From a virus, in IMG/VR virus record IMGVR_UViG_3300000928_001353, positions 1-22,177 of that record: DNA of 22,177 nucleotides. The stretch is one strand, 5' to 3'. Of the stretch, positions 1,116 through 21,932 are shown piece after piece; positions within the stretch are counted from its first letter, which is position 1, and each line of letters opens with the position of its first letter. The notes beneath the pieces are model-generated. The model had not been told where the DNA came from and searched no databases. It saw nothing but the letters and a program-made list of their open reading frames with translations. The position numbers and the translations under genes were made by a program.

Positions 1116-4100
1116 TTATGCATTGTAACCGTAATTTGCGAACAATATATATTGCTCGTTACTATCTCCAGTAGTGCTATCAACAATATAGCGGTCAACT
1201 TCTATATCTAATGTTTTAAAATCAAACTTACTATTTCTAACATTTGCTAATATTTCTGCACTTTTACCAGGCTTACAATAACATAACGGTATTGCTAGTG
1301 TAAATCCTGATTCTTGTGTTCCTGTACTCTGCGGAGTTCTCATCCACAATGGCAAGAACCCATATGTAGTCTGTCCTGTTGCTTCTAAACTTTCTCTCAT
1401 ATTAGTAATATTACTAATGTGTCTAATATCATCACCGCCAGACACTAATATAGCATCACTGTCTGATAAAGGAATATTTTCTCTTATACCTTGATTAAAG
1501 TTTTGACTATCTGTTTCAGCTATTGCTGTTAATAAACTGCTCTGATCACTACTTACTACCTTATCTCCTACTGCTAGTGTCATATCGTTAGTTGGGAAGT
1601 AATACTGTTTATCACTTTCATCAACTCCTGAAGTTACATAGTTTGGCTCATATCCACTTACTCCTAAGTCGTTATCTTGGAATAGTTGTCGTAACATTGT
1701 CTTTGAAGGTTTAGTAATTACAGGTAAAATATGTGTTGTATATAACGCATGACCTAATGGATTTGCATCTACCGCCGAAATACCTTCCGGAGTACGCATG
1801 TTATCATGCCATTCAGGTTGTAGTGATCCTCCCGGTATAAATTCTGTAATGTAATTCCATTCGCCGAGTACTAACAAGTATAAGTATTCACGCATTAACA
1901 ATGCTCTAAAGTCTGCATCGGTTCCAGGAAACGTGCCGCTATATCCAGAAATATCAAACATATTATTGTTTATTGCTTCTACCATTGCAAGATACAAAGC
2001 ACTAGTTTGATTCTGTTGATTTAATGCATCATTTTCTGATAGGCCATATACTGTAATAGTATGAATTAAATGTTCTAGTACTTCTAATATAGCACTATCA
2101 CCATTTAAACTTTCATTTACGTGTTCCCAAATATAGTCTACTGAATTGTAAGTATATTGAAACTTCTCTAAGCCTTCATAAGATAATACTGCATTATCTG
2201 CTGTAATACTTGGAGTATAACTACTAGGACCTTGCCATCCTATTTTTTGTGCTGTTTTGTTTTCTTTCATTCTATTAATAACAGCCATTTGTTTAGTAGG
2301 ATTAGTACTACCGCCATATGTTGAATCTAATAGAAGAGTTACTGTTCTTGCTACTTTTAAAATGAACTCGTTGCTGTTTGCTCTTGCACCGCCAATAGCA
2401 GGAGTACCTACTAATTTAATCCCATATACATCAAGAAATCTATCAAATGGTCTAAATTTACTACTATTAATTAGCGGATCTTTATTAAAAATTTCATCTC
2501 CACCTTTAAGTGTAATCATACCTGAATTAGTATGCTCTCGTCCATTAGTATCCCATATACTAACTTGATCAACAGTTAGTGATTTACTATTTTTAATTTT
2601 AAAGTTTTTAGCAGTCTTACCTTTAGTTGGTTCTGCTGGATCAATTACTTCTGCGTATACAATTTCGTATACTGTATTGTCTGTTCCTGGTGTTTTTGCA
2701 AGAGCAGTTTTTACATTACCAACTTTATAACGTCTTTTCTTATGATACTTTTGACTACTTGCAAAATATGTATCTAATGATTTAGTTTCTAAACCTGCAT
2801 ATGCTAGTATCTTAACTTCTTTTTGCAGACCAAATTCAGAATCGTTAGGACGATATAAAACATTAGCTGGGAATATGTTAGGATTACTTATAAGTCCTCT
2901 ATAAGATGCACGTAACTCTTGATCCATAAATGGTTTCATATATAGGTTACTATATAACAAATCGTTTTCGTCTAGAATATTAATTGTAAATTGCTTGGTT
3001 ACTGCACTATAACCAAACCTATCTTTAGCTTCTACAGTAAAGGTATAAGATCTATCAACAGTGGTATCTCCTCCATCGATTAAAAGTAAACCGTTATCAA
3101 AAATAGTTAGTCCGTCTATAATAGTAGGAGTAATTTCACCAAACTGTTGTACTTTGCCAGTTATTTCTCCATCAAATTGTAAACTAAGTCCTGGAGGTAA
3201 TCTACCGGCCGTTTTAGTATATATTAATGGAGCATCAGTAACACTACTCGTAGCTTCTACTCTAAACACGCTTATAAAGTTTGCATCAATAGTTCCTAGT
3301 ACAGTATTACTAGTAAACTCAATAGTTGAATCTACATCACCTAGTATTTTAACTGTAAACGTTCTATCTTTAGATGAAGCTATTGTATTACCGTCAACTA
3401 AATTAGCTGTAACAGTAAACTTATATTCTTTAGTTACTGATGGCTGATATGGTATGCGACCTGCTACTTCGCCTGTTGAAGCATCTAATGTCATACCAGG
3501 AGGTAATGTACTTGCACTAGCATCTGGATTATTAGATTTAAGTACAAACTGTGTAACTCCTTGTTGTAAGTTATTTTTTAAAACATCAAGGAATATTGTA
3601 ATATAATTATCAGCTCGTCTATAACCTATATCACTATTTGTTAACCATACTGGTGTTCTAAGATATGTGTTGTCAGAAGTAAATACTCCTGTACCTACTT
3701 GCATTAATACGTTATCTGCTCTTAAGAAATCATCGCCAACTACATATATTGTAAATTGTCTTTTAACAATAGTATCTCCATCATTTACGCTTACTGCAAA
3801 CTGATAGTATCTATTAAGTTTCTTTGGTGCTTTAAATACTGCATCTGGAAAAAACTCGCCGTTGTAGTAATAAGAACTAACACTAGTAAAGTCAAATGCG
3901 TATCCGTCATATGTATTTGTATCATATGCACCCTTACTAGCCGCTACATCTAATGCAAGTAACGGATCAACTACACCTGATATTAAACCAGTACGACTCA
4001 TAGTAATACCTGACGGCAACTCTCCGTCGCCTTTATTAATAAAATATTCTAGTTGTTGTCCTGCAGGCATATCTAAGTCTGTTGCCTGTAATTGGAAATG

Positions 4101-4460
4101 AATAATTTCATTATCTAAAACAAAATATCTTTTGTTTTCCCCACCGACTGATAAGTTTCCTTCTGGTGTGGCCCATATTGGTTCATCAGCACCTTCTACT
4201 ACAATTTTATAAGTTCGGTCTTCTATAATAGAACCAGTAGTTGCTCTTATTACAAATGTGCTAGTGGTAGATCTAGGAACTGGATTAGGAGTTCCTACAA
4301 TTTGATTATCCTTTAGACGTAAACCTTCTGGCAGTTCACCTGATATTAATTTAGTTGTAACTGAAGCGTTATCAGAAATTGGTAAGTTTACTATTGCAGT
4401 AATACTTTCCTCTAAGTTAGCTAAAGTGACTCCTGAAAGATTTGTCCAGATATTGCTCAT
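1116..4460 (-). CDS. 1114-residue structural protein with putative Ig-like (He_PIG-type) domains
   Basis: At least four repeats of the type LP.G(L/I/M)....G.I.G.P occur at about residues 42, 148, 318 and 420 (for example LPPGMTLDASTGEVAGRIP). This is the hallmark of putative Ig (He_PIG/cadherin-like) domains that extend fibres and bind surfaces. From about residue 500 the protein changes to a non-repetitive region, which includes E796-H797-L-I-H800, REYLYLLVLGEW and EWHDNMRTPEG. I recognise this only as resembling conserved segments of large marine T4-like phage virion proteins. There is no signal peptide or membrane helix. The gene starts 2 nt after the stop of the 180-residue gene, so the two are probably co-transcribed from the late promoter at 5025-5032. 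A fibre or baseplate role is inferred. Confidence 0.85.
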   Translation of the reverse strand: MSNIWTNLSGVTLANLEESITAIVNLPISDNASVTTKLISGELPEGLRLKDNQIVGTPNPVPRSTTSTFVIRATTGSIIEDRTYKIVVEGADEPIWATPEGNLSVGGENKRYFVLDNEIIHFQLQATDLDMPAGQQLEYFINKGDGELPSGITMSRTGLISGVVDPLLALDVAASKGAYDTNTYDGYAFDFTSVSSYYYNGEFFPDAVFKAPKKLNRYYQFAVSVNDGDTIVKRQFTIYVVGDDFLRADNVLMQVGTGVFTSDNTYLRTPVWLTNSDIGYRRADNYITIFLDVLKNNLQQGVTQFVLKSNNPDASASTLPPGMTLDASTGEVAGRIPYQPSVTKEYKFTVTANLVDGNTIASSKDRTFTVKILGDVDSTIEFTSNTVLGTIDANFISVFRVEATSSVTDAPLIYTKTAGRLPPGLSLQFDGEITGKVQQFGEITPTIIDGLTIFDNGLLLIDGGDTTVDRSYTFTVEAKDRFGYSAVTKQFTINILDENDLLYSNLYMKPFMDQELRASYRGLISNPNIFPANVLYRPNDSEFGLQKEVKILAYAGLETKSLDTYFASSQKYHKKRRYKVGNVKTALAKTPGTDNTVYEIVYAEVIDPAEPTKGKTAKNFKIKNSKSLTVDQVSIWDTNGREHTNSGMITLKGGDEIFNKDPLINSSKFRPFDRFLDVYGIKLVGTPAIGGARANSNEFILKVARTVTLLLDSTYGGSTNPTKQMAVINRMKENKTAQKIGWQGPSSYTPSITADNAVLSYEGLEKFQYTYNSVDYIWEHVNESLNGDSAILEVLEHLIHTITVYGLSENDALNQQNQTSALYLAMVEAINNNMFDISGYSGTFPGTDADFRALLMREYLYLLVLGEWNYITEFIPGGSLQPEWHDNMRTPEGISAVDANPLGHALYTTHILPVITKPSKTMLRQLFQDNDLGVSGYEPNYVTSGVDESDKQYYFPTNDMTLAVGDKVVSSDQSSLLTAIAETDSQNFNQGIRENIPLSDSDAILVSGGDDIRHISNITNMRESLEATGQTTYGFLPLWMRTPQSTGTQESGFTLAIPLCYCKPGKSAEILANVRNSKFDFKTLDIEVDRYIVDSTTGDSNEQYILFANYGYNA

Positions 4461-4462
4461 TT

Positions 4463-5005
4463 TTATATAGATCCAAGATTTGTCGAACCAAGTGGAGTAG
4501 GAATACTACCATAATCTATATCTACTACATATTGTAAATAATCTCTATGACTATTATGTGCTTGCGTTATTGCCCCAAAGTCAAAATTATTTTCAAAAGA
4601 AGCACTTATACTATCATTAGTAATTGTAAGTGTAGAGCCTATTGCTGAAGTAGTAACACCACTACCGCCTAATATATTAAATGACGTACCGTCAGCTATT
4701 GCAAGACTGCCCGAGTCAGTAACAATAGTATTTCCATTTAAGTTTGTAGCAATAGTAATTAAGTCGCCGTTGGTTGTTACACTAATCCTATCGCCTTCGA
4801 TAATTTTACGGAACTCTAAGTTGTATCCTGTTTTTTGTTTAAAAACTCCGCTACCACCTACACCTACGTTTGAACCAGTAGTTGCTTCGTCGTTTCGTAA
4901 GTCAAGTTCGTCAAAGTTTGCATTAACTTTAAGAAATGCGGATCTAAGATCATCTCCTGTTCCGTCGTTTGCTAAAGTACCTATGTTAATATCTTGAATT
5001 GCCAT
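4463..5005 (-). CDS. 180-residue structural protein with the shared N-terminal docking-type module
   Basis: It begins MAIQDINIGTLANDGTGDDL and continues RSAFLKVNANFDELD, the same module that opens the 211- and 2360-residue proteins. The middle is a beta-rich, Thr/Ser/Gly-rich region (residues about 50-135). The C-terminus repeats a DFG/DYGSI-type motif (FDFGAI, then DIDYGSIPTPLGSTNLGSI), a pattern I associate with marine phage fibre-like proteins. The start is supported by a GAGG RBS and by the late motif at 5025-5032. The 1114-residue gene follows after 2 nt. It is probably a small fibre or adaptor subunit; the exact role is unknown. Confidence 0.82.
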   Translation of the reverse strand: MAIQDINIGTLANDGTGDDLRSAFLKVNANFDELDLRNDEATTGSNVGVGGSGVFKQKTGYNLEFRKIIEGDRISVTTNGDLITIATNLNGNTIVTDSGSLAIADGTSFNILGGSGVTTSAIGSTLTITNDSISASFENNFDFGAITQAHNSHRDYLQYVVDIDYGSIPTPLGSTNLGSI

Positions 5006-5034: not shown

Positions 5035-8000
5035 TTATGGGAAGTTGCTTCCTGTGCCCCATTTAATTCTTACACCGCCTGCTTGAGCGGCTGTTCCGCT
5101 GGCAGTTCCAAACCAGTAATAGTAAAATGATCCAACGTTTTGAGCTCTAATTCTACCTCCACAACCGCCACCGCCGCCACCACCGACTGAAACTGTTGCA
5201 CTACCATCATTACTTCCTATTCCGCCGTTAGTACCGCCATCGTAGTTAAAGTATAATGGACTAGTGCTTACTACTAACTGTGGAGCCGGCGTCCCGTTAG
5301 CTCCATTAGCTCCGCTACCATATAGTTCAACACCGCCGCCACGACCTCCTCTTGCTCTTTTTGAATAGTTATACCCGCCGGTACTTCTATAAAACTGTCC
5401 TAGTCCTGTGCCGCCTTGACCGCCACCGCCGTAGTTTGCACTGCCAGAGCCAGCACCTCCTCCTCCGCCGGGAACATTACCAGTAAAAGGACTTAGCGAC
5501 CCGCCATTAGTTCCAGTGCCGCCGGTATCTCCGCCTCTGCTTGTTCCATAGCTACTATTAGTAGTAAATGTTCCGCCGGTTCCAGCTGTAGAGCCACTAG
5601 ATGCTTGACCGCCGCCTGCTGTTAATAAAATATCGCTGTTATATGTAACAGTAGTGTTTCCTCCATTTCCAGGAGAAGTAATTGTGCTGTTGTCCGGATA
5701 GTAATTTTGCGGGCTATTAACAGTTTCAAAAGGATCATTAAGACTACAGATCCCTAGTGTTCCTGCGTCTCCTACGTTAACTGTCATAGTATCTCCTGGA
5801 CTAACTGCTACTGCATTTACCCAAGCTACAGCTCCGCCACCGCCACCACCGCCTGATCCATAAGATGCTCTGCCAGCTTCTGCGCCACCACCGGCGCCAA
5901 CTGCAATAATGTCAACTGATGTAACTCCATCTGGAACTGTAAATACTGCGGATCCAGCTGTGTAATCAGTATACTCTCCTGATACTGTAGTACTAGTATC
6001 ATTAATTACAACACTAGCTGATTGTCCTTTACCATCTAATGATACTAATAATGTTTCTGAACCTTCTGTTATTCCATCTGCTGAAATAACTATATCTAAT
6101 GTTGCTGTATTATTAACAGCAACAAAGTTTCCTGTTAAACTTGCTCCACTAATATCACTACCGACTACACCTGATATCGTATACGCTATGTTAGTATTGT
6201 TATCGACATTTGTTGTTGTTAATGTAAATGTTACAGTTGTTCCTTCGTTTGCACTACTAGCACTAGCCGCAATAGCGTATGTTGGATCTCCGCCTCCAGC
6301 CGCTACTGAGTATGGTTGTAACGCCATTTTATATTCAGTTGTTACTGATGGTGAACTCGGAGTAAGTCCTGTGCTTTCCGGCATTGCTCGTGCAGATGAG
6401 TTAGGTGGTAATATATAAGTTGGTGTTGTAGTATCCCCAGCAATTAGTTGGTTAAGTAATGTATTTTCTTGACCCCAAACAGTAAATGCAATTGATGTAA
6501 AATTACTATTCTCTGCTGTTCTAGCTTCTACGTATCCTGTTTTACCAATAGCCCAATCTTCAAATGTTTGGTTAATCGTTGCTACAGCATTACCTATTCC
6601 GTCTCCGTAATGATCCTCAGTTCCTACAGGAACTGATGCTACAAATTGACTTGCATTTCCGCCGGATAGTTTATTGCCTGGATTACCTTGTCCACCTAAA
6701 TAAAGTTTAGTTACACTTGATGCACTCTTGTCTACATATACACTATTAATAGAAGTATTACCAGATGTTAATAATAATCTACTGTCTGCTGTAGCTAAGT
6801 TTGCTGTGTCTATTTTAGCAAAGTATCCGTTTAGAGCACCTAAGTAAGGAGTATAGTTATCAGCACTATCTTCTTTTTGTTGCCCTGCAACATATATAAT
6901 TGCACCGTCTAATTTAACATCTGTTAACACATTTCTTTGTGTAGTTCCAGTTGAATCATATATACCTATACGTTGTATTACACTACTTAGTGCATGATGT
7001 AAGTGATATATTTCTCCCTTACCAGTAGAAGTATCATTAAGTGTAACTACTACTCCTTCTTGGCTAACATCAATACCTCCTAATGTTATATCAGTAGTAG
7101 CATCTTTCTTTTCAAATGTTATTTCTCTAACAATGTTTGGTATATTATTTGTTCCTTCAAGATAACATCTAACAATAATTTTATCTTTACGTTGTACTGA
7201 TGCTTCGGTACCAGTATATGGAGTAGAAGGATCTCTACCTACATGTGTTCCTGCTAGGTAATAATATTTTCCAGGAGCATCGAGCCCAGTAATTTCTTGG
7301 TAGCGTATATGTTTAAAATTTTGGTTATGTTGGTACTCCGCCGCTACCGCAGGCCAAAGATAACTTGAACCAGAAATAGATGCAGTTGCCGCTACTCCTG
7401 ATGCAAGTGTTACTCTATGCCATAATGCACCTACACCCCATATAGGGTCAGAGCTAGTAACATCTGGAGCTCCTTGTATCAGCTGACCTACACAATTTAA
7501 TGTTTCACCGTCTTGTCCAATACAGCAATCATTAAAGTATGCTTGATTATTTTCTGCAACTCCTCTATAATTACGATATTTTTTAGACCATTGTACTACA
7601 CCATCTGAATTAAATTTAATAGCAAGTGCTTGTGAAAGTAAAGAGGTATCATAACTAGAATCAACCATGTTGTTTCCTTCACCACCGACAACATATATAT
7701 TATTGAGGGAGTCTAGACATACACTAGTTAAAAATGCAGGAGCCGCAACAGTTTTACGCCATACAAGATTTCCTTTTGGATTTGTCTTATAAACAAAGTA
7801 TGAAAATACACTACTAGTAGATTCTGACTTAGATATACTAATAGTATTTCCTAAACTATCGCCTGCTATTTTTATTACTTCCTCACTAGCACTAGTGTAA
7901 TCAGTTGAGCTTGCCCAATAGTCGCCAGTGGTATAGATTTTACTATTCATTGCACTATGTGAGCTACATTGATAATATGTTATACCAGCAGTTCTTGGAG

Positions 8001-11000
8001 TATAAACTACAGCCCCTGATGTTGCTCCATTATTAGTTACATCTGGTACTTGATTTCCTGTTCCTGTACCCTGTTGCGTTTTTATATAAAACGGATGTCC
8101 TGGTGCATTTACATTAAAAGTTAACGTATCATTTATATTAGCAACTATAAATGGATTATTACCTGAATAGCTACCATTTCTGTCGGTTGCACTTGAGAAC
8201 GTATAAGCTGACGTACCTGAACTAACTACATTACCACTATACGATTGTTCTGTTCCTGTAGATGAGTCTGTTATTGTTACGCTTATAGAAGTTGCACCAT
8301 TGTCGAGCGACATTAAAAATGTTTCGTTACCTTCTTCAGATGAATCTTCAGTAACTGTAATCGTTTTTTGATTACTAGCCGGAGTTAGTGTACCTGTAAG
8401 CACTTCGTTTTCTATATCAGCACTAGTTACACCTGTAATTGTGTAAGGCATTAGTGTACTTGAAACTGTTAAGTTATTTGTTAATGTAACTATAAAAGAA
8501 CTTCCTTCATATACAGACGACTTGTTAGCACCTAAGCTATAACTAGGTGATTGGAACTGATACGCTAACACATCACCTGGATATGTAATCATAATTGCGC
8601 CAGCAATGCCACTATTAGCTCCCGGAACTGTACTTGATAACGAGTGTGTCATAACACCGCCACCGCCGGCGCCAGCATTAATTGCGGAGCCAACTGTATT
8701 TCCTGGATTACCGCCTGTTCCACTAAACGCTGTACCTGCACCTGTAATTGTTTGTGATTGCGTAGTAGTTGGTTTTGCTCCTGCTAAACCACTTCTTCCA
8801 ATAGTAACTGTTACACCACCTCCACGTCCACCAATTACATTTCCTGTACCACTTGCCCAATCTGCTGTATATCCATGTCCGCCGCCTGAGCCAGCACCTA
8901 TTCCACCATCTACTGCTGTTTCTGATGGAGCATTTTGTGCAGTTGTATCTGTTAAGGCTGTCTGAGGTGAACCTGCACCTCCGTCTTCGCCCATACCAGC
9001 GGCACCACCACCGCCTCCTACTACTGCTGAAGATGTATTAGGGCGATAGCTATTGCCGCCTGCGCCGCCAGCTTTTGAAAAGTCCCATGCTCCTGATGCT
9101 GTACCGCCAGCACCTCCTGCTATTAATGTATTAATAGCCATTGGATTTATACTAGATGATGTTCCTGCTAATCCACCGCCTGCTGTATAGCTAACACCGC
9201 CTACTGTTATTATCGTACTACCACCATTACCACTTGCACCACTACCTCCTGAACCTACTGTATACGTTACAATATCTCCAGGCGATACAGTTATATTATT
9301 TTTGAATGCAATAGCACCACCACCACCACCTGATGTTATAGTGCCTGCTGATCCGCCACTTATGCCAGCGGCGCCGCCACCTATTCCCATAATGCCAATA
9401 TTAGTAACTCCAGCAGGTACAGTCCAAGACCCTCCTCCTGATGTTGTAATTGTTTGTGTTCCAGACACAACATCTAAACTAGTATCAACTATAGTAACTG
9501 TTCCGCTAACATCAGGATAGTTGTTTAATGTAAAGGTTAAAGTTTCATTACCTTCAGTAGTAAGATCTTCAGCAGTAGTAAAAGAAACTGTTTCTACAGA
9601 TCCAATGGTAAAGAATCCAGTTAAACTATCTCCTCCAATGTCAGCACTAGTTACACCAGTAACTGTATACGGAACTTGTACACCAGGTACTCCGTTAATT
9701 GCAGAAATATTAACATTAAAACTGCCCCCTTCATTTACTGTAGTTTCTGAGAAATTTAAAGTATAACTTGCGGCCACTGTACTAGTATCAGCAATAACCA
9801 CTTGTGAACTAGCCAGCGTATTGTTAAGTGCTAGTGTTATTGTTTCTTGTCCTTCGGAAGTTTCGTCTGCTGTAATATCAAGTGTTCTACTATCAGTAGT
9901 ACCTACAACAAATGCTCCGGTAAGACTTGCACCGCCTATATCATCACTAGATATACCTGAAATTGTATACGGTAAAGATGTTCCTGAAGAAACGTTACCT
10001 GTTGTTAGTGTAAATGTTACACTACCTCCTTCACTAACAGTAGCACTACTAGGCGATAAAAAGTATGTAGCGTCTGGCTTACTAGTATCTGTAATAGTAA
10101 CACTAACTGATGCTAGTCCATTATCTAATGATAATAGAAATACTTCATCGCCGTCATCAAATATAGTATCTGCTGTTACTTGTACAGTAAGAGTATTAGT
10201 TGTTCCTACAATAAATGATCCTGTTAAACTAGCACCGTTTATATCACTTGTACTAACACCTGTAATAGTATATGGAACAATAGTACTATTAACTAAATTA
10301 GTTGTTACTAATGTTATTGTAAATGTTTCGCCTTCGTCAACTCCGCTTGTACTAGTTGTAAGTGCATATGTTGGTGTTACTACTGCTCCTGTTTCTTCAC
10401 TAGTTACTTGTCCTGCTATAGTTAATACTAATGATGAGTTATAAGGTTGAAAAGCAAATCTATTTTCTGCTTCTAATAAACTAGTTGGCGAAGTATAATC
10501 TATACCTGCACCGGCTGTATCTTCTAGCATTGATGTTTTTGCATTAGATGTAACCCATTCTAATGCCTGTGCAGTAGTTTTTGTAGGATTAATTTCTAAG
10601 TAAGTAGATAGTAGTCCTACAATTTGCGGACTTGCCATACTAGTACCACTAATATTACAAATTTTAAAACTACTATTATTTGGATACACTCCATCTGTAA
10701 ATTTGTTTATATTACTTGTGGAACTCATAATATTTGTTCCTGGAGCAAATATATTCACTCCTGGGCCTCTTTCTGAGCTTGCTGAAATCTTTTCTTTTCC
10801 ACTAGTTCCTACGGTTGAATCAATATTACCTACTATTAGTGCTTCATCGTCAAAAGGTGAACCGCCTCTATGATAATATATTTTAGTACTAGACCCGTTT
10901 CTAGTGTAGTAATTATCATAGTCGTTACCTGAAGGAACATCAATTTTGTGATACCCATTGCCTGCCGCAATACATACATGCACACCGGCATCTATAAGTT

Positions 11001-11940
11001 CTTGTACATCAGTGTCAACAGATGCAATACGTACAGGATGCCTATAATATAATCCAGTAAAGCTACCGGTCATTCCGTAATCAGTTCGTCTACCAGAACC
11101 AGTCCATTCAGTTCCACGCCAGTTACCACCTGCGATGTTAAAGTAAGATGATCCGTATCCCCAACTCATATTTACAATAGTTGGACGCTTAACTCCAGTT
11201 GTTACATCAACTGGTTTAGCAATGTGCCATTCTTTAATTACATCAAATATATCACTAATTGGTATTCCTGAATTTGGATCTGATGAACCTTCTAGACCGG
11301 CTATCTTAATTGCATAAATTCTTGCATTCTTCCCCCAGCCATATGTTTTACCTGCGGCGATGCCTGCACAATGAGTACCGTGTCCATCATAATCAGTGTA
11401 ATGTCCGTCGGGCATTGTTCCTGGTAACCCACTTGCTAAATACCAATCAATTTGTTGTACTCTATTAACTTGTACAGAATCTTCAAACTCTGGATGGTCT
11501 GCTTGTATACCACTATCTTGAATAACAATATCTACACCTGCACCTGATAGAGTGTAATCAAATCCGCCTGCAACTAAAGTTCCTACGTAAGGATCTGTTG
11601 CACTATTCATACGTCGAAGTCCCCAGTTTACAAAGGCACCTTCATCTAACGCTGTTTTAGTAAATGTTCCTGTTTGTGTTGTATCAAAACCAATTTGAAT
11701 ATCGTCTCTTAAGTCAGGACGTAGCTCAACACCATATACTCTTTTGTCCTGTTGTAATATTTCTACTTCTTGAGGTGTTAGATAATAGTGTGTATTTCTT
11801 TGTGATCCTGGCCTAGCATTAGCTACTTCGACATTTCTATTTGGAATAAATCCTGCACCGGTTAAGTTAACCATTTCTGCATTAAACGCTACAAAATCAA
11901 CTCCTCGGTTAAGGCTAACTATATATTCTTGCTCCGACAT
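5035..11940 (-). CDS. 2301-residue virion-type protein: subtilisin-like protease fused to Calx-beta-like, Gly-rich, cupredoxin and propeller-like domains
   Basis: Residues about 5-75 resemble a peptidase inhibitor I9 propeptide (YIVSLNRGVDF, then EILQQDKRVYGVEL). Residues about 125-475 are an S8 subtilase with all key residues: D142 (IQDSGI), H187 (DGHGTHCAG), oxyanion N328 (AAGNG) and S434 (SGTSMASP). Calx-beta-like repeats follow at about 522-618, 624-720 and 723-822. Then come a Gly-rich module (824-1122), a fourth repeat (1129-1228), a cupredoxin-like domain (1230-1336; H1282, C1325, H1328, M1331), a beta-propeller-like stretch (1340-1846), a fifth repeat (1886-1985) and a second Gly-rich module to the end. 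No signal peptide is seen, which fits a virion part rather than a secreted enzyme. The start is backed by an AAGGAG RBS about 8 nt upstream. The protein is probably a tail fibre or adhesin with proteolytic activity; target and processing are inferred. Confidence 0.88.
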   Translation of the reverse strand: MSEQEYIVSLNRGVDFVAFNAEMVNLTGAGFIPNRNVEVANARPGSQRNTHYYLTPQEVEILQQDKRVYGVELRPDLRDDIQIGFDTTQTGTFTKTALDEGAFVNWGLRRMNSATDPYVGTLVAGGFDYTLSGAGVDIVIQDSGIQADHPEFEDSVQVNRVQQIDWYLASGLPGTMPDGHYTDYDGHGTHCAGIAAGKTYGWGKNARIYAIKIAGLEGSSDPNSGIPISDIFDVIKEWHIAKPVDVTTGVKRPTIVNMSWGYGSSYFNIAGGNWRGTEWTGSGRRTDYGMTGSFTGLYYRHPVRIASVDTDVQELIDAGVHVCIAAGNGYHKIDVPSGNDYDNYYTRNGSSTKIYYHRGGSPFDDEALIVGNIDSTVGTSGKEKISASSERGPGVNIFAPGTNIMSSTSNINKFTDGVYPNNSSFKICNISGTSMASPQIVGLLSTYLEINPTKTTAQALEWVTSNAKTSMLEDTAGAGIDYTSPTSLLEAENRFAFQPYNSSLVLTIAGQVTSEETGAVVTPTYALTTSTSGVDEGETFTITLVTTNLVNSTIVPYTITGVSTSDINGASLTGSFIVGTTNTLTVQVTADTIFDDGDEVFLLSLDNGLASVSVTITDTSKPDATYFLSPSSATVSEGGSVTFTLTTGNVSSGTSLPYTISGISSDDIGGASLTGAFVVGTTDSRTLDITADETSEGQETITLALNNTLASSQVVIADTSTVAASYTLNFSETTVNEGGSFNVNISAINGVPGVQVPYTVTGVTSADIGGDSLTGFFTIGSVETVSFTTAEDLTTEGNETLTFTLNNYPDVSGTVTIVDTSLDVVSGTQTITTSGGGSWTVPAGVTNIGIMGIGGGAAGISGGSAGTITSGGGGGAIAFKNNITVSPGDIVTYTVGSGGSGASGNGGSTIITVGGVSYTAGGGLAGTSSSINPMAINTLIAGGAGGTASGAWDFSKAGGAGGNSYRPNTSSAVVGGGGGAAGMGEDGGAGSPQTALTDTTAQNAPSETAVDGGIGAGSGGGHGYTADWASGTGNVIGGRGGGVTVTIGRSGLAGAKPTTTQSQTITGAGTAFSGTGGNPGNTVGSAINAGAGGGGVMTHSLSSTVPGANSGIAGAIMITYPGDVLAYQFQSPSYSLGANKSSVYEGSSFIVTLTNNLTVSSTLMPYTITGVTSADIENEVLTGTLTPASNQKTITVTEDSSEEGNETFLMSLDNGATSISVTITDSSTGTEQSYSGNVVSSGTSAYTFSSATDRNGSYSGNNPFIVANINDTLTFNVNAPGHPFYIKTQQGTGTGNQVPDVTNNGATSGAVVYTPRTAGITYYQCSSHSAMNSKIYTTGDYWASSTDYTSASEEVIKIAGDSLGNTISISKSESTSSVFSYFVYKTNPKGNLVWRKTVAAPAFLTSVCLDSLNNIYVVGGEGNNMVDSSYDTSLLSQALAIKFNSDGVVQWSKKYRNYRGVAENNQAYFNDCCIGQDGETLNCVGQLIQGAPDVTSSDPIWGVGALWHRVTLASGVAATASISGSSYLWPAVAAEYQHNQNFKHIRYQEITGLDAPGKYYYLAGTHVGRDPSTPYTGTEASVQRKDKIIVRCYLEGTNNIPNIVREITFEKKDATTDITLGGIDVSQEGVVVTLNDTSTGKGEIYHLHHALSSVIQRIGIYDSTGTTQRNVLTDVKLDGAIIYVAGQQKEDSADNYTPYLGALNGYFAKIDTANLATADSRLLLTSGNTSINSVYVDKSASSVTKLYLGGQGNPGNKLSGGNASQFVASVPVGTEDHYGDGIGNAVATINQTFEDWAIGKTGYVEARTAENSNFTSIAFTVWGQENTLLNQLIAGDTTTPTYILPPNSSARAMPESTGLTPSSPSVTTEYKMALQPYSVAAGGGDPTYAIAASASSANEGTTVTFTLTTTNVDNNTNIAYTISGVVGSDISGASLTGNFVAVNNTATLDIVISADGITEGSETLLVSLDGKGQSASVVINDTSTTVSGEYTDYTAGSAVFTVPDGVTSVDIIAVGAGGGAEAGRASYGSGGGGGGGAVAWVNAVAVSPGDTMTVNVGDAGTLGICSLNDPFETVNSPQNYYPDNSTITSPGNGGNTTVTYNSDILLTAGGGQASSGSTAGTGGTFTTNSSYGTSRGGDTGGTGTNGGSLSPFTGNVPGGGGGAGSGSANYGGGGQGGTGLGQFYRSTGGYNYSKRARGGRGGGVELYGSGANGANGTPAPQLVVSTSPLYFNYDGGTNGGIGSNDGSATVSVGGGGGGGCGGRIRAQNVGSFYYYWFGTASGTAAQAGGVRIKWGTGSNFP
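5038..5975 (-). repeat. C-terminal glycine-rich module of the protease-fibre protein
   Basis: It opens with FTVPDGVTSVDIIAVGAGGG and includes SGGGGGGGAVAWVNAVAVSPGD, followed by many GG-rich loops. The opening matches the internal module at 8570-9470 (WTVPAGVTNIGIMGIGGG; GGGGGAIAFKNNITVSPGD). Glycine-rich tips of this type form polyglycine-II sandwiches in gp38 adhesins of some T-even phages; whether that fold applies here is inference. Confidence 0.65.
8570..9470 (-). repeat. Internal glycine-rich module, related to the C-terminal one
   Basis: This part (residues about 824-1122) has the VP.GVT opening, the GGGGGA(I/V)A.....VSPGD core and long GG/GGG-punctuated loops shared with the C-terminal module. 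On the plus strand it appears as dense ccgcc/ccacc runs, which create spurious proline-rich antisense frames. Confidence 0.65.
9470..10380 (-). repeat. Three tandem Calx-beta-like repeats (two more copies at about 8255-8555 and 5985-6285)
   Basis: Each repeat is about 100 residues with the pattern V.EG.(T/S)FT.TL.T...PYTI(T/S)G(V/I).S.DI.G.SLTG.F..G......TAD...EG.ET..L.L.N..AS..V.I.DTS. The EG near the start and the acidic D...EG.E loop resemble Calx-beta domains, which are extended beta sandwiches that often bind calcium. The DNA copies have diverged but keep the GVTSADI-type core. Confidence 0.7.
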
Positions 11941-11959: not shown

Positions 11960-12595
11960 TTAGTGTAATTCTACCCAAGCACCGTTGGCATATGCTTCCA
12001 TCTTGCCTGATGTTTGGTTGTATATGATTTCTCCGTTTGCGGCAGCCAATCCATTCCTTTGCGTTGTTGTATATCCTGCAGATACAATTCTAGATAGCGT
12101 AGCAGTTAATGTTCCGTTTACTACAGTGTTACTTGAACTATGACCAATTTGCACATCTCCTGAGGATGTGTTCTCGCCGATATTTATACCTTGGCCATTA
12201 GTATTTAATTTAATATTACTATCTGAAAAAATATTAACACCACTTGCTTGTCCAATTTTAATAAAGTCAGTATCGCCAGTTGACGCTTGTAATGCTAACG
12301 TTCCAGATGTTACAGTTATTTCAAGATTACCATTGCATGTCCAAGTGTCCGAACTAATAGGACCGTTGATTGTACTGTTTAGTCCGTCTACTAGCTGTGT
12401 ACTGTCTGCACCAAATACACTACCAATAATACTTTGCTCTATCATATTACCAGATGAATTAGTTGCAACTTCTAAAGAATCTAGTCTCGGATAAACTTCA
12501 TTAAAGTTATCATTAATTTTATCAAATGCACTTCTTAAAGGATCGCCATCTCCTTTATTTGCACTTGTGCCTATGTTTACCGTTTGTTTTGCCAT
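11960..12595 (-). CDS. 211-residue fibre-like protein with the shared N-terminal module
   Basis: It starts MAKQTVNIGTSANKGDGDPL, then RSAFDKINDNFNEVYPRLDSL, the module shared with its neighbours, running into a short coiled-coil-like helix. The middle is beta-rich and repetitive (IKIGQASGVNIFSDSNIKLN, then GINIGENTSSGDVQIG), suggesting a beta-helical shaft. The end (YTTTQRNGLAAANGEIIYNQ, then TSGKMEAYANGAWVEL) is a common C-terminal tip motif of phage tail proteins (RN...A.NG.(I/M)IYN.T..K...Y.NGAW). It follows the 2360-residue gene with a TAATG one-base overlap and precedes the protease gene by about 20 nt. A late promoter consensus lies inside it at 12181-12188. It is probably a small trimeric fibre; the host-recognition role is inferred. 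Confidence 0.82.
   Translation of the reverse strand: MAKQTVNIGTSANKGDGDPLRSAFDKINDNFNEVYPRLDSLEVATNSSGNMIEQSIIGSVFGADSTQLVDGLNSTINGPISSDTWTCNGNLEITVTSGTLALQASTGDTDFIKIGQASGVNIFSDSNIKLNTNGQGINIGENTSSGDVQIGHSSSNTVVNGTLTATLSRIVSAGYTTTQRNGLAAANGEIIYNQTSGKMEAYANGAWVELH
12181..12188 (-). promoter_or_regulatory. Perfect T4 late promoter consensus inside the 211-residue gene
   Basis: The minus strand reads GGTATAAATATCGGC, an exact TATAAATA. It is coding (GINIG), so chance is possible. It lies about 240 nt upstream of the start of the 2301-residue protease gene, which has no late motif in its own short intergenic gap. Confidence 0.35.
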
Positions 12596-15500
12596 TATAC
12601 TCTTCCCACTACAATTTCAACAATGCCTTTATCAGCATCTTGTTTTGTTCCAACTGCTTTACCTAATACAGTACCTATAGCTGGACTATTGTCAACTATA
12701 GCATACCCGGGTATATTACTTGTTACTAGCATATCTCCAGCTTCTACAGTACCAATTACATTACACGGAACTCTACCTTGTAATGCTACTGCTACTCCGT
12801 TTTCTAATTCTGAATTCATTAAGTATGCCGGATTAGTTGAAACAACACCAGCAACTTTAGTAGTACCTTTTACATTAGATTGTGTAACTTCGTGTGTTCC
12901 GCCAAACATTACTACTGTTCCCGGAGTATATATTTCATCTGCGGTGTAGTTCTCAGCTAAGTCAGCATATTTTGCAGATGTAGCAGTACCACTAAACGTA
13001 GTTGCATACATTGTATTGTAAGTTAATGTTGAACTACCTATGTTGTAAGTGTTTGTTGCATCTGGTACAACACCTGTTGCACTAAACTTAAATGGATTCT
13101 TAGTAGTAGCACCGTCTTTTACAAGTAAAGCAATTTCACCTGCAACTGATTTACCAGTGTCAGCACCTAATGCAATACCAGTTGATCCTGTGCCCTTTTC
13201 ATTTGCCGCTTCAATAAAATTAGTATAAATCCAATCCGATGATATCCTTGCTTCTGCGGCAAAGTTACTATTAGTTTGTAGCGTACTTTGTGTATTTGCT
13301 CCGCTATTACCAACATCAATACTTCCTGGGAATTCTGTAGTAATCAAACTAGTACCAGTTGCTTCAAGTATTGTAGCACCACCCGGTGTAAGCATTTGAA
13401 TTGTCGTCGCCGCACCTGACTTTGGTTGTAAAATTACGTTAGTGTCTGCCGCACCTACTACTAGTTTACTAACTCTAACTTCACCAGTTGCTTTGGTCAT
13501 CACTAAACTACTGTTTGCACTAATAGTTGTAATAGGAACTTCCGTTGGAGTTGATGCTCCTCCGCTTATATTACCTATTACTCTTAAATCTGCTATACTC
13601 GGCAAGTCAGCAAAATCAACTCCGCCACCTTTTAATGTTACCCAACCGTCTGTTACAGTAAAGTCACCTGCATCAAAACTAGCAAGTCCTAAATCACTCT
13701 GTGCAATACCAGTAGCGTCTGCTCTAGTACTTGCCGCATTCATGTTTAATTTACTTTGTACAATCGCCGCTGTTGCTGAAACTGCCGCATTATCAATACT
13801 ACCTGCCGCAAAACTATAAAGTGCTGATGTTGAACCTGCTGTTCTAGTAACAGTAACAGCCATTGAACTATTACCATCTGCTACAGCGTTTGCAATCTCA
13901 TCAAATGGGCCGTCTAAAATATCTGCTGTTGGTCCGCTAGTAACAATAATCTTATCGCCACCGTTTGCTACTGTTCCTGCTGTAGCTGTGTAGGTAATAA
14001 TCTGTATGTTACCAAGTATTGGATCTGTTGTTGTTTCTACATCAACAACAGTACCTGTTGAACTACTACTAGCCTGTGCAAAGTTTTGTGCCGCGGCCCA
14101 TGTTCCTGTACCACCAATAGTATCAGCATCAACAATAAGTCTTTTCTTGCCTGTAAATACTAGTAATTGGTCTGCCGCAACATTATTAAATTCAGTATTT
14201 CTTAATTCTTCTACACTATCAAAGTTATCAACAACTCCGTCTACATATGCTTTAGTTGCCGCATGTGAGTTTGCACTTGGAGCAAGTAGATTAGTAATTT
14301 GATTTGAACCTAAGTTCATATTACCTGTTAGTGATACACTACCATCGGCAGCCAATGCACCTGAACCAATTATGTTGTTTGCAACTAGTCCGTTATGATC
14401 CCAACCTAACCGTCTGTTAACATATCCACGTACTGCACTCTGTGTTGGAACAATATCTGAACCATTTGCTGTCATGCCGTTATCTGTACTAAATTCAGCT
14501 ACAACAACACCACGTTTAAATCCAATACCGTCTAAGTTACTTAATGCAATACTACCTGCAAATGTAACTGTACCAGTACCTTGGTCAACTGTAAAGAATC
14601 TACCTACACGGAAGAAACCATCTTGGTCTGTACTTACAAAGAACACTCTACCTTTGTTACGTTCATTTATTTCGTTAGCTTGTACTGGAGGTTGTGGATC
14701 TCCTAATAGAACGTTTGGATAGTTACTGGTGTTAAATCCACCAGTACCAATATCTAAGAAGTCGTGTCCTGTTGCTCTACAAGTTGAAATACTAATTGTA
14801 ACATCACCTGGTGCACCGCTTGGAAGACCAGCTCTTAGTGTAGTAGTTTGTGATCCACTAAGCACTACTGATGCATGAAGTCCTGTTTGATTTGATGATA
14901 AGTTTAAATCACTATTTGCTATTTCTGAAATATTTACTGTAGCATATGTTCCTCGATCAATATAATTACTAACTGTGTGAAGTTTACCAGCCCAGGCAAT
15001 AATCATATCATTACGTGAAATTCTTTCTCTATCTGAAAGTGCTGTTAATTCTTCAATTGCAATTACATCATCACCTGCCGTAGCACCCATTGTTGTTCCA
15101 CCGGCGCCGGCATATGTATTTGCCGCCGCATTAGTTTTGTCAACAATAAGTCTTACATAATCAAACGTAGCATCAAAGTTTGTTAATACAGTATTATTTG
15201 CTAATGCTTCACCAGTTGATTCTGTAATTGTAAATGCAACTGTTCTGTATGTAAATTTTGGTTGCTCATCAAACTGTATAGCTGTACTTGGTCTGGTTGT
15301 AAGTGATGAAGGATTTGCAACACCTTCTAGTACAAATGCTTGGTTTTGTCTATATGTAACACTAGTGTCTTCATCTGTATTTTCAATTAATCCGTCGTTA
15401 TCAAATCCACTATTTGATGTAGTAAACGAAAGTTTATAAACTTGTCCATCATGCTTTGGTGTATGCGTAGTTGCCGCAATAGTACCTGTAACTGTAGCAG

Positions 15501-18500
15501 TTAAAATTGCACCGCTACCATTGATAGTTGCTACTGTAATTGTAGCATTATTAGCGGTAGTTGCACCATCTAGTTTTGCACCTGCGACAGTAAATGTATG
15601 TCCTACACTATATCCACTACCGCCTGCTCTAATAGTTACTCCATAAGATGCACTTGGTGCTTTCTTTTTAGTAATATCAAACTTAGCCGCAGATCCGCCT
15701 GAGTCATTGTAGGTGTATGCAACATCTTGATGTCCATCTACTATAAAATCTAATACTTTACTAACACTACTAACTTCGTGTCTAACTAGTGTACCACTAG
15801 CATGTAAAATATCAATCTCACCTTTATTTTGCGGAGCATGTTCAAAGTCATATGCATATATGCTTAACTGTCCCGAAGCAAGTGTGTATCCACCTGTAAC
15901 AACAAGTGTTGGAGGTCCTAAGTTTACACTACCTGCTGATAGAGTAATATCGTTAGTTGTGTTGAATGTACCCGATGTGTCTTTTAAGTAAAGTTTTTTA
16001 CCTTTAGTTGTAAACACAACAGTACCTGTAGCACCTGTAACAGCCTGTGTTACTGTGTTACCTCTTGTACTTAATGTAAGTACATCTGCAAAGGTAAGTG
16101 TGATGTTTGCTTCTGCTGTCTTAGCAGGCATCACCATACCATCACGTAATGTTACACTATCTGGAATTTCGTTTGGATCACTACCGTTGGCAACTAGTCC
16201 AAAGTTACCGTATGCATTTGATCCGTTAAGTGATCTAATTTCACCACCTTTGTTTGCAAAGTATGAAGTATGACAATAGTAAGTAAACTGTGATACCATT
16301 TCTGATAAGCCACCGTTTGTAACAATAAGTCCATATCCTAAGTCATTAACTTGTGTAAAGTCATTACCTAGCATACTTCTATTACCAGCTGTCTGTACAG
16401 TAATCTCAATTGGACTAACACTACTAACTGTGTCTAAGTTAAATGAGTCTGCTAGTGTTCCTGTCCAGCCAGTGCCGTTATTACTTGATCTATCAAGTAT
16501 AAGTGTTGCAGTACCTAATGCTGGATCCCAATCTCTAACTGCGTTAACCTGGAAACGTTGCCCGTCAATATAAAACGGAGCTGGTGTTTGTGGCTTCTTA
16601 ATAAACAAACCTGTACCTGCACTTGATCTAACATCAACTTGGTATATGCTATCTTTATTAATAACTTCCATTGGAGTATTACCAGTGTAAGCATCAACTA
16701 GCATACCACCTCTAAATGCTTGTCTGTTTAAACTTTGTGAAAAACTTGACCCTGTTTGACAGTATGGTGATTTAGTTAATACTTGACCATCAGGATCAAG
16801 TACCATCATAAATCCGCCGTGTCCTTGTACACTAATATTTCTAATAATAGTAGCATCGTTCATCATAAACACATCAAGTAATCTATTGTGTTTAGGCGGA
16901 TTGTAACTACCGTTGTTAAAGAATGTTATAACATCAACTAGCGAATTTAAGTTAGTTTGTGTATTTGCTTCAGGAGTTAGGCTTGAGTCAATTATTTGTG
17001 GAACTGTTGATCCTAATTTTGAACCCCAAGCACTATTTGCTAGTACTCCTGCTGTAATTGTTTTAAGATAGTTAATAGCCGCAACAGTTTCAGTTTCTTG
17101 TCCTGCTACTGATCCTGAATAATAAGCACCTTGGTTCTTTAATGATTCAGCTCTTCCACCTGTTACAAGATCTTTAATAAAGCCATCAATAATGTAACCA
17201 GTATCACGTCTACACTTAGCTTCAGTATAACTTAAACTTGGATACGTGGCATTAATATAAAGTATTGTTTCTTCAATAATAAATTGTTTATTTTTCGTTA
17301 TTAATTTTGCAGATTGTTTAAAATTACCTGGGTTAGTAATGCCACTATTACCTACATTAACATCAATAAGATTATTTGTAAGATAATGTTTACCAAAGTA
17401 TCCTACTACATTGCCTGTTAGTGGATCAACATATCCACCACCTGCTGTTGGAATATTAGTATCTGCAAATCCTGTAATACTACTATTTGCACTACCTGTT
17501 AGGTTATCAAATAGGTAGTCTCTATAAAAATATGTATTTGCCCATGGGCTTTGTGATGATCTATCATTTGGTGAAATAATACAACGTCTAAACTCGTCAC
17601 CTTTAATTGATGTGTTTTGAGGAACTTTAATTGGAAAGTCTTCAAAGTATCTACCTGATTCAACAAACACTGTTGCTTCTTGGTACTTAACTGTGTTAGC
17701 ATATTCAACTTCTTCACCTGCTATAAATTCAACTGGCTCTAATAATTGAAGTTGTAATTGGTCTTGATTTGAAGGTGTTACAGTAGCAGGATCGTTTTCA
17801 TACAAGTAACTAACAATCTTACCTAACGCACCACTGGTTTTTCCTCTAACAGTTTTACCAGGAAGTATGTCTGTGTTTGACGGATCACCTTGATCAACAA
17901 ATCCATTACCACCGTTAGCAATATTAACTTCATAAACGCTACCATCAACAGTTGCAGGTGCTTCAAACACACCGTCAGTAATAATACTTGTAACAATATC
18001 AAATTTTGCCGCAACACTGTTTAGCCCTGTAGTATCAACAACTTGTCCTGAATCAATTGTTTGTGAATATAATGTTTGTAATGCTGTAATTGTATTGTTT
18101 TGTAATACATCAGATACTAGTGATTTAGCTTTAGCAATACCTGCTAGTGTTTCTGTTCTTTGTGTACTGATTGATACAGCCGCACTTGAGTTTGCATAAT
18201 ATCTCAAACCAGCAGTCTTACTTAAGAAGTTTGCATTGTTTCCTGATAGTGTATCAAGATAAGCAGACTTAATAATTAATCCTATATCTCTAGCACACAA
18301 GTCAGCATCATAAGTTAAGTTTGGATATGTTGCATTAATAAATGCGACTACTTCCGCCTTAATAAATTCAAGGTTTGCATCAAGTAATGTTCTAACCGGA
18401 AGTCTACCAGATACAATACTCTGAATACCTACGCTTTGTGTTAGTGCTTTATTAGCTGTACTACCGTATGTAATAGTTTGTTTATAAGGACCTAGCTCTT

Positions 18501-19689: not shown

Positions 19690-20055
19690 TTATATAGCAG
19701 GTACTGCTAACTTATCCATATCAAAGTTTACACTCACACCGCACCCACAACTGCTCTGTGCATTAGGATTAATGATATCAAACATTGACCCCATAATATC
19801 TTTTTTATAATCTATTTTAGTCCCAAATAAGAACATCATACTTGCGGCACCTACAATAAATGTGCAATTTTCTGTAGCATAAATTATTTGATCATCATCA
19901 AGTAGTTCAGTTGCTGTAGAATATGTTCCCCATTCGTATTCAAAACCAGCACACCCTCCACCTTTCATGTTTAGCGTAACAGCATAAACTTCGTGTTCTT
20001 TACAAATTGTAGTAACTTGTGCTTTTGCGGCGTCTGTAAGCGTACAAATATCCAT
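19690..20055 (-). CDS. A-type iron-sulfur cluster carrier (IscA/ErpA/HesB-like)
   Basis: A 121-residue protein, about the normal length of the family. It has the three invariant cysteines of A-type carriers: C35 in KGGGCAGFEYEW (family motif GGCSGF.Y) and C103/C105 in SSCGCGVSV (family CxCG), with the expected spacing of about 67 residues. Such proteins hold or deliver Fe-S clusters or iron to apo-proteins. They are known in marine T4-like phages, but their target is not established. The start at 20055 has an AAGGAG RBS and the late motif at 20074-20083. The 2360-residue structural gene follows after 12 nt, so the two are probably one late transcript. It is cytosolic, with no signal sequence. 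The carrier assignment is firm; its role in infection is inference. Confidence 0.92.
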   Translation of the reverse strand: MDICTLTDAAKAQVTTICKEHEVYAVTLNMKGGGCAGFEYEWGTYSTATELLDDDQIIYATENCTFIVGAASMMFLFGTKIDYKKDIMGSMFDIINPNAQSSCGCGVSVNFDMDKLAVPAI

Positions 20056-20115: not shown

Positions 20116-20403
20116 ATGTTCTTAGAAGAAAAAAATATTAAGACCCGGCATGTAAGAAAGTCTAAATCAGGCAAGGAACACACTTATTTTAGAGAAAAAC
20201 ATATTGTTATACTACGGTGTGATAGTTGTAAAACAGCATTTGAACGCCCAAGAGGTAGCATGGACCCTAAACGGTTAACTAATAATTATTTTCATGTGTG
20301 TAGTAACTGTGATTCTAAACGATTTGCACAGAAAAAAGGTGTAGAAAAGAAGCAGATATGGAATGTATCTGCTTCTAGTGATCTTCCTATTGGTAGATTG
20401 TAA
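20116..20403 (+). CDS. 95-residue zinc-ribbon protein
   Basis: This is the only convincing plus-strand gene. Two CxxC pairs, C35-D-S-C38 and C62-S-N-C65, are separated by a basic segment (FERPRGSMDPKRLTNNYFH) and would coordinate one zinc as a ribbon. The rest is lysine-rich (KTRHVRKSKSGK, RFAQKKGVEKK), which fits nucleic-acid binding. The MDPKRL.NNYFHVC.NCD.KRFAQ.KGVEKK region resembles a conserved hypothetical protein I recall from T4-like cyanophages; its function is not known to me. The sigma-70-like promoter suggests early or middle expression, unlike its divergent late neighbour. It may be HNH-derived or regulatory, but no HNH catalytic set is visible. An 11-bp inverted repeat lies near its 3' end, and the stop abuts the convergent 54-residue gene. 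Confidence 0.85.
   Translation: MFLEEKNIKTRHVRKSKSGKEHTYFREKHIVILRCDSCKTAFERPRGSMDPKRLTNNYFHVCSNCDSKRFAQKKGVEKKQIWNVSASSDLPIGRL
20341..20376 (-). terminator. Rho-independent-type terminator for leftward transcription, inside the zinc-ribbon gene
   Basis: A perfect 11-bp inverted repeat (20348-20358 and 20366-20376) encloses a 7-nt loop. On the minus strand the stem is followed by T-rich sequence (TTCTTTTCT), as expected of an intrinsic terminator, and it lies about 28 nt beyond the stop of the 54-residue gene. No T tract follows on the plus strand. The stem is only moderately GC-rich. Confidence 0.6.
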
Positions 20404-20828: not shown

Positions 20829-21932
20829 CTATGCTGGAATCATCGGAGCCTTGGCTATGTTTAATGAATCCAATGTACTGAATGTATCAACTACAGGTTC
20901 TTTGCATAGTGTATTTATCCTATGGTTATTAAGGGCAATAGAAGCAAGATTTTTGCATTTAGATTCTACCATAATATCAGCATAGTCTAAGAATGTTAGT
21001 GCCCAGTCATTTACTGCATTGTTCCACATGTAATCACTATGGGCTCTTAGTTTCGCTTTTTTGTATCCTTGCTCTTCCAAGGTTCGAAAGTTTGGTCTAG
21101 TTCCCGTATTATGTAGCGGGAGAAGATCCTCTCTACTAACACTATAATGAATAGTAGGACGCACACCACGCCAGCTATCAATAATACGTTTAAATCTGTC
21201 GTCGGTAGGTTCAATATACTCTCCTCTAGTGTTGCACCAATGATGGTGAATATCTAACACAAGAGCGAGATCTTTTTCAAGTTCGAGGCTGTGTTCGATT
21301 CCCCATTTGTTTTCGTCGTTTTCGATGGTAATACAGTTTCTTGCTTCAGGCGTGAGTCTTTTAAGTGCGTCTTTGATACCGGCTGGACCTTTGCGACCTG
21401 AGATGTGGACGTTACACTTGAAGTCTTGGAAGGTCTTACCATATCCCATCCACCTGATGATATCCACATGATATTCAAACTCCTCTATACTACGTTCAAC
21501 AATGTCGGGGCTATCACTAGCAAGCACAGTAAACTGACCAGGGTGCATACTAAGCCGTACGTCGAGAAGACGAGCCAACCTGCCGACCTTTGCAAGATGA
21601 ACTGCACAGTACTCACGTACATCAGGTAGCCGCCAGTAGTAACACCAGTCACGCTGAGTGTAAACAGGCAGTATGTCAGAGCCAAGCCTAACCATTCGTA
21701 ATTCATTTGGTAATCCTCCTACATATTCAATTAAGTTATAATAACTTTGTATGTTGTGGACCATTATGTCCCACAACCTTTGTTCTGCAACTTCTTTAGT
21801 CTGTCGATTTAACCATTGTACTGTTGTACACTTCGTATTTAGTGGTCGTTGAATTTCTTCAAGTAGTTTTTTCTTCTGCGTCTGATCGTGATGCATAAAC
21901 TTGCATGCAAAGCCTATTCGTTTAGTTACCAT
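20829..21932 (-). CDS. uvsE: UV damage endonuclease, UvsE/UVDE family
   Basis: A 367-residue TIM-barrel-type enzyme starting MVTKRIGFACKFMH, the family's usual K.R.G.A beginning. Likely metal-binding residues are visible: H130 in SMHPGQF, E204 in TIENDENKW, and the histidine cluster 229-231 in LDIHHHWC, followed by HYSVS and VESKCKNLA near the end. Enzymes of this family nick DNA 5' to cyclobutane dimers and 6-4 photoproducts, starting an alternative excision repair. That suits a phage in sunlit water. It starts within a possible 49-residue ORF (7-nt overlap) and downstream of a strong sigma-70-like promoter at 22047-22075, suggesting early expression. The length is near that of bacterial homologues, with some C-terminal extension. 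Confidence 0.92.
   Translation of the reverse strand: MVTKRIGFACKFMHHDQTQKKKLLEEIQRPLNTKCTTVQWLNRQTKEVAEQRLWDIMVHNIQSYYNLIEYVGGLPNELRMVRLGSDILPVYTQRDWCYYWRLPDVREYCAVHLAKVGRLARLLDVRLSMHPGQFTVLASDSPDIVERSIEEFEYHVDIIRWMGYGKTFQDFKCNVHISGRKGPAGIKDALKRLTPEARNCITIENDENKWGIEHSLELEKDLALVLDIHHHWCNTRGEYIEPTDDRFKRIIDSWRGVRPTIHYSVSREDLLPLHNTGTRPNFRTLEEQGYKKAKLRAHSDYMWNNAVNDWALTFLDYADIMVESKCKNLASIALNNHRINTLCKEPVVDTFSTLDSLNIAKAPMIPA

Follow-up and report, generated by a model that had tools for sequence, protein, structure and literature searches.

The window, the whole stretch of 22,177 nucleotides that was analysed, is a 22-kb virus record that ends where the window ends. Its minus strand carries a gene of a marine phage, an open reading frame of 2301 amino acids (5035-11940), of which residues 1-492 (10465-11940) form an S8 protease head. 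Behind this head follow about 1800 residues of Ig-like, glycine-rich, cupredoxin-like and unassigned modules. The features are listed by position, with identities to L002-L004, the window's nearest relatives, which are giant forms too.

1116-4460, minus strand: 1114-residue baseplate-wedge-like protein with He_PIG Ig domains (E=2.3e-20)
4463-5005, minus strand: 180-residue protein with a gp9/10-like N-terminal module, downstream of the protease gene (phrog_677 E=7.8e-9; PF07880 E=8e-5, sub-threshold)
5035-5973, minus strand: C-terminal glycine-rich domain 2, residues 1990-2301 plus stop, fast-evolving (phrog_4474 E=6.9e-17; 51-55% identity to L002-L004)
5998-6267, minus strand: fifth Ig-like repeat, residues 1892-1981 (repeat search; 53-56% identity to L002-L004)
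6301-7965, minus strand: unassigned fast-evolving region, residues 1326-1880 (47-52% identity to L002-L004)
7975-8286, minus strand: cupredoxin-like domain, residues 1219-1322 (C-terminal region of phrog_9158 against residues 1224-1313; relatives)
8266-8526, minus strand: fourth Ig-like repeat, residues 1139-1225 (repeat search across relatives)
8551-9426, minus strand: glycine-rich domain 1, residues 839-1130 (phrog_4474 and phrog_863, tail fiber assembly)
9493-10362, minus strand: three Calx-beta-like/Ig-like repeats, residues 527-618, 629-718 and 731-816 (phmmer repeat search across relatives)
10501-11628, minus strand: S8 (subtilase, proteinase-K-like) catalytic domain, residues 105-480 (PF00082, Foldseek, invariance)
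10639-10641, 10957-10959, 11380-11382 and 11515-11517, minus strand: catalytic codons of S434, N328, H187 and D142, respectively
11629-11715, minus strand: variable linker, residues 76-104, probable autoprocessing region in which cleavage would occur (identity, pLDDT, alignment)
11716-11940, minus strand: I9-like propeptide or intramolecular inhibitor, residues 1-75, beta-alpha-beta-beta-alpha-beta (AlphaFold2, PDB fold matches)
11960-12595, minus strand: 211-residue protein with a T4 gp9/10-like N-terminal module (baseplate adaptor), upstream (phrog_677 E=1.5e-12; PF07880 E=8e-4, sub-threshold)
12595-19677, minus strand: 2360-residue tail fibre with a gp9/10-like N-terminal module, upstream (phrog_9851 tail fiber protein, E=1.5e-52)

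The S8 head matches PF00082 over residues 133-479 with E=1.6e-26 and 93.7 bits (cut-off 21.8), covering profile positions 1-288 of 288. This match is seen with the 492-residue head and is lost when the whole 2301-residue chain is scanned in one go. PHROG 9158 matches residues 2-483 (E=5.8e-74), and in the PDB the best-matching sequences belong to keratinase, proteinase K and aqualysin. The catalytic motifs are canonical, with D142 in QDSG, H187 in GHGTH, N328 in AAGN and S434 in GTSMA. The AlphaFold2 model of residues 1-492 has a pLDDT of 92.1 and matches proteinase-K-like structures, the top Foldseek match being Protein T 8c4z (E=8.4e-19, target-normalised TM about 0.8), so that model and Foldseek both give the subtilisin fold of the S8 family. 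The complete S8 protease that the earlier note had read here, with its four residues at these positions, is borne out by the full-profile match and by the structure prediction it had proposed as a check. Its remark that a signal peptide is absent also agrees with the N-terminus, which has no hydrophobic segment (best 19-residue Kyte-Doolittle mean 1.11 within residues 1-60).

Among 140 distinct phage sequences, the catalytic residues are invariant at D (139/139), H (139/139), N (139/139) and S (137/137), with 1, 1, 1 and 3 gap rows, respectively; the DNA patterns used to collect close relatives include none of these four residues. Such invariance argues strongly for selection on catalysis, and an inactive pseudo-enzyme was rejected on this ground. 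Taken together, sequence, model and conservation indicate that the head is a complete and probably active protein-cutting enzyme. A calcium switch was considered and then dropped, because N396 stands here in place of the Ca1 aspartate of proteinase K (D200, located by eye); Asp is the commonest residue at this column in the phage clade.

Residues 1-75 are an I9-like propeptide by predicted fold. The modelled secondary structure (E4-10, H16-24, E39-41, E49-54, H56-62 and E68-73) follows the order of the I9 domain, and residues 1-80 modelled by themselves reach a pLDDT of 84. The propeptide-like segment had been placed as ending near VYGVEL, and it is indeed a structural unit whose last predicted strand, residues 68-73, is VYGVEL. 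Since PF05922 (I9) gives no match to residues 1-75 up to E=10, and the propeptide alignment used as a profile against the PDB found nothing, fold comparison was used instead. All 12 of the 12 best fold matches in the PDB are S8 propeptides or pro-enzymes (entries 3cnq, 8u45, 3whi, 1scj, 8c4z, 8c4x, 1spb, 8gko, 4yn3, 8gkp and 8gkq), with E from 0.0075 to 0.11 and TMq from 0.45 to 0.63; individually these matches are weak, but the pattern is not. The I9 assignment proposed earlier therefore stands by fold and fails by the PF05922 model. When the whole head is compared by Foldseek with unprocessed pro-subtilisin E, 484-505 columns are aligned with an rmsd near 22 Å; as modelled, both domains match while their relative placement does not. 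Of the modules of the giant forms, the propeptide is conserved best (84% identity to L002-L004), and the linker of residues 76-104 is among the worst (38-52%). The lowest pLDDT block of the head model, 70, lies within it at residues 81-90, and residue 105 aligns with mature residue 7 of proteinase K.

Past residue 526, a Pfam search finds no module above its cut-off in the window protein, and residues 1326-1880 have no Pfam match. The Calx-beta match is sub-threshold, its strongest stretch lying in the repeat at residues 1139-1225. Glycine-rich domain 1 is conserved in L002-L004 and in part in L023, while glycine-rich domain 2, at the C-terminal end, is a possible distal tip. The cupredoxin-like domain has the pattern H...C-x2-H-x2-M (HPFYIKT...YYQCSSHSAM). 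As a separate observation, domains of this kind, whose H...C-x2-H-x2/3-M pattern is amicyanin-style, occur repeatedly in phage tail proteins and are also found in L005, L006, L022, L023, L030, L033, L034, L039, L046 and L073.

The relatives come from viral contigs (272 matches, 80 kept, 50-70% identical) and from phage records (51, mostly 25-35% identical and mostly cyanomyoviruses), with two further scans; megablast of the window against phage records gives no match. Most sampled relatives consist of the protease alone, with about 510-550 residues. In the remainder it is extended by Calx-beta-like repeats (one, three, five or six), by a cupredoxin-like domain, or to the full giant form of 2301-2324 residues. 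The protease head is the constant part, and its C-terminal partners vary from nothing to Ig-like repeats, cupredoxin, lectin and esterase. In S-SCSM1_228, the S8 head is fused to a Laminin_G_3/ConA-like lectin. In ACG-2014h (L099, 7335-10259), it is fused to an esterase-like domain (BD-FAE, sub-threshold) and a cupredoxin-like domain that passes the PF00127 cut-off. In S-TIM54 (L086, 6051-12488), an esterase (BD-FAE) sits between the propeptide and the S8 core, with Ig domains behind, so that processing cannot be alike in all members. The two esterase-like domains are of the alpha/beta-hydrolase type, and the modules fused to the S8 head are of adhesion or carbohydrate-degrading type. The description of the protease as standing at the front of a giant structural protein holds for the window protein, with its 2301 residues, but not for the family, in which the giant form is one end of a series from about 510 to 2324 residues. 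L028, L029, L060 and L073 each have two S8 genes, one typical and one divergent; these lie in tandem except in L060, where they are apart.

A maximum-likelihood tree built from 89 sampled S8 domains unites 57 phage rows in a single clade (100/99) distinct from the cellular subtilases; the closest cellular domains that were found show about 25-31% identity. The fold, the catalytic residues and the I9-type pro-region are common to the window protein and to proteinase K, aqualysin I, Meiothermus keratinase and Protein T. However, the proteinase K-like enzymes are secreted and cellular, whereas the phage clade lacks a signal peptide and sits on a long branch (0.98). The jumbo phages Atu_ph07 and Phosso are also large phages with an S8 enzyme, which in Atu_ph07 is encoded close to a tail-fibre gene. 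The Atu_ph07 domain, unlike that of the window, falls outside the phage clade and among the cellular proteases; its branch is very long and its position unsure, and it is possibly a separate acquisition. The Phosso domain was left out of the tree. A further S8 domain that groups with cellular proteases is that of L097 (CAKLQF020000006, 'Acinetobacter phage MD-2021a'). Its neighbourhood is bacterial-looking, with transporters, a cysteine desulfurase and regulators, and the contig may represent host DNA that was recorded as a phage.

An S8 protease of this kind had been called unusual, which does not hold in the sense of rare: the family is widespread in phages and is catalogued as T4-GC 292, with PF00082, and as PHROG 9158, of 'unknown function'. 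Its members include PSSM2_297 (P-SSM2), SSSM7_232 (S-SSM7), SCREM1_165 (S-CREM1), a protein of S-H38 and S-SCSM1_228. They share with the window protein the S8 clade, the catalytic residues, a propeptide-like N-terminus followed by the S8 core, and baseplate or fibre neighbours. They differ from it in being 25-35% identical and mostly 550-740 residues long, without the Ig and glycine-rich extension. The S8 clade is thus phage-specific and known by annotation, while the giant form is new. A literature search found no functional study of these phage S8 proteins and no function given to the family.

The protease gene was said to be flanked by fibre-type genes, and the PHROG fibre and gp9/10-like matches in its neighbours agree with this. 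The 211-residue adaptor-like gene ends 19 nt before the protease gene, the 2360-residue fibre is 84% identical to that of L002, and residues 655-953 of the 1114-residue protein match a Syn33 protein annotated as a baseplate wedge subunit. The order of fibre, gp9/10 and baseplate genes is common to many relatives. Where the upstream flank of a relative is sequenced, the protease gene nearly always comes directly after a fibre or adaptor gene of the same strand, with a gap of about -28 to +40 nt, and this upstream neighbour is highly variable in length and content. Other genes lie beyond the fibre genes of the window. An A-type iron-sulphur cluster biosynthesis protein (19690-20055, minus strand; PF01521 E=1.5e-11) is encoded directly upstream of them. 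A lone 95-residue ORF on the opposite strand (20116-20403, plus) has a Cys-x2-Cys...Cys-x2-Cys pattern with weak Pfam matches only, and is possibly a small zinc-ribbon protein. A UvdE-type UV-damage endonuclease (20829-21932, minus strand) is nearest to those of Phage NCTB (48%) and of Erwinia/Dickeya jumbo phages.

The gp9/10 modules raise the possibility of a T4-like cyanophage origin of the window, which finds no support in its close relatives. Neither the T4-type portal gp20 (PF07230) nor psbA was found in nine relative contigs of 53-237 kb, which may be incomplete; P-SSM2 and S-H38 were positive controls in the portal search, while the search for gp23 is uninformative, as no control responded in it. 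The L012 contig (G001, 236,751 bases), the single large genome examined among the relatives, has contractile-tail genes, including a sheath, and has neither T4 portal nor psbA. Its TerL is 53% identical to that of PA5oct and 51% to that of Atu_ph07, so that it is not T4-type by portal or TerL and apparently represents a little-known large myovirus lineage. Based on the missing portal and psbA and on the TerL affinities, the close relatives probably belong to large, uncultivated myoviruses that are not cyanomyoviruses.

Evidence for a place in the virion comes from a distant relative. S-SCSM1_228, which is 28% identical over the head and has a different C-terminus, bears a '(virion protein)' mark in GenBank. 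For S-SCSM1, the published report gives 45 phage proteins detected by mass spectrometry in CsCl-purified virions (PMC9602691), and the GenBank record has 48 features with the virion mark. The mark seems to follow this experiment, although the numbers differ by three, since several predicted structural proteins, for example SSCSM1_17, 209, 211, 215 and 245, do not have it. Virion proteomes have also been reported for S-CREM1 and S-CREM2, the accessible portions of which do not name the S8 protein. No virion anchor can be recognised in the short forms that stand alone, and an S8 protein in CsCl fractions could be a contaminant. Synteny and this one relative nevertheless support the view that the phage S8 protein is carried on the virion, as the earlier note had supposed for the window protein.

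The reading that we place first, and hold with about even confidence, is that the protein is a subtilase that activates itself, is borne on the tail and cuts proteins of the host surface, its presumed substrate. A proteinase-K-like S8 enzyme, catalytically intact and presumably active, would be synthesised in the cytoplasm with no signal peptide. The I9-like N-terminal domain would fold the enzyme and keep it inhibited until the linker is processed at about residues 75-104. The protein would be built into the tail fibre or baseplate region beside the gp9/10-type adaptors, to which the observed synteny points, and the variable C-terminal modules may serve as a stalk or adhesive part. During adsorption the active enzyme would cut cell-surface proteins, much as polysaccharide-degrading tailspikes cut sugars.

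The best surviving rival, which is possible but rather unlikely, is an assembly or maturation protease that cuts itself or a neighbouring fibre or adaptor in tail assembly and may remain in the particle. The adjoining same-strand fibre or adaptor gene makes a dedicated partner plausible, the propeptide implies controlled activation, and the many relatives that are a protease alone fit such a role. A maturase, however, has no need of lectin, esterase, Ig and cupredoxin fusions, and a partner gene would not be expected to vary so strongly among relatives. Identity to L002-L004 is 67-70% for the protease core and 47-56% for the distal region, against 79-84% for the two large flanking proteins; the core thus diverges faster than its possible substrates. 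Because of these fusions, and because core and distal region diverge faster than the flanking proteins, a host-facing role is favoured over maturation on sequence grounds, short of proof; the faster divergence can also be relaxed constraint.

An enzyme freed or displayed at lysis, which degrades host proteins and thereby aids escape or limits binding to debris, is improbable. Release only at lysis would fit the lack of a signal peptide, and proteinase-K-like enzymes are typically secreted digestive proteases, but the gene lies inside a tail-fibre and baseplate cluster and the relative in S-SCSM1 carries the virion mark. That the S8 fold is a catalytically idle scaffold or binding domain is very improbable: phages do take over enzyme folds for structural use, but here the inhibitory propeptide domain is kept and D, H, N and S are invariant (139, 139, 139 and 137) even though the cyanophage members are only about 25-35% identical.

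The host-surface protease may be compared with the polysaccharide depolymerase tailspikes, since sugar-cutting tail enzymes are well known. By analogy, both would be tail-carried enzymes that clear a path to the cell surface. The tailspikes, however, cut sugar, whereas the phage S8 enzyme would cut protein, has no beta-helix and is non-homologous. A wider and more tentative reading, to which we give somewhat less than even confidence, is that the phage S8 clade consists of proteolytic tail depolymerases. Many marine myovirus virions would then carry an active, self-maturing, surface-cutting protease, with exchangeable stalk, lectin and esterase modules that set its reach and target; S-layer, porins and giant surface proteins of the host would be the targets.

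The gene is common in marine phages and its active site does not vary, yet it is annotated only as a hypothetical protein, a peptidase or a baseplate protein, and a functional description of an active protease kept on the virion was not found in the literature searched. The modular series, from the protease alone to about 2300 residues with lectin, esterase, Ig and cupredoxin modules, is a natural experiment on protein building. The finding raises the question of whether these phages shave or unlock the surface proteins of their hosts, and whether host range is set thereby. Culturable carriers, S-H38, S-CREM1, S-SCSM1 and P-SSM2, make this role testable.
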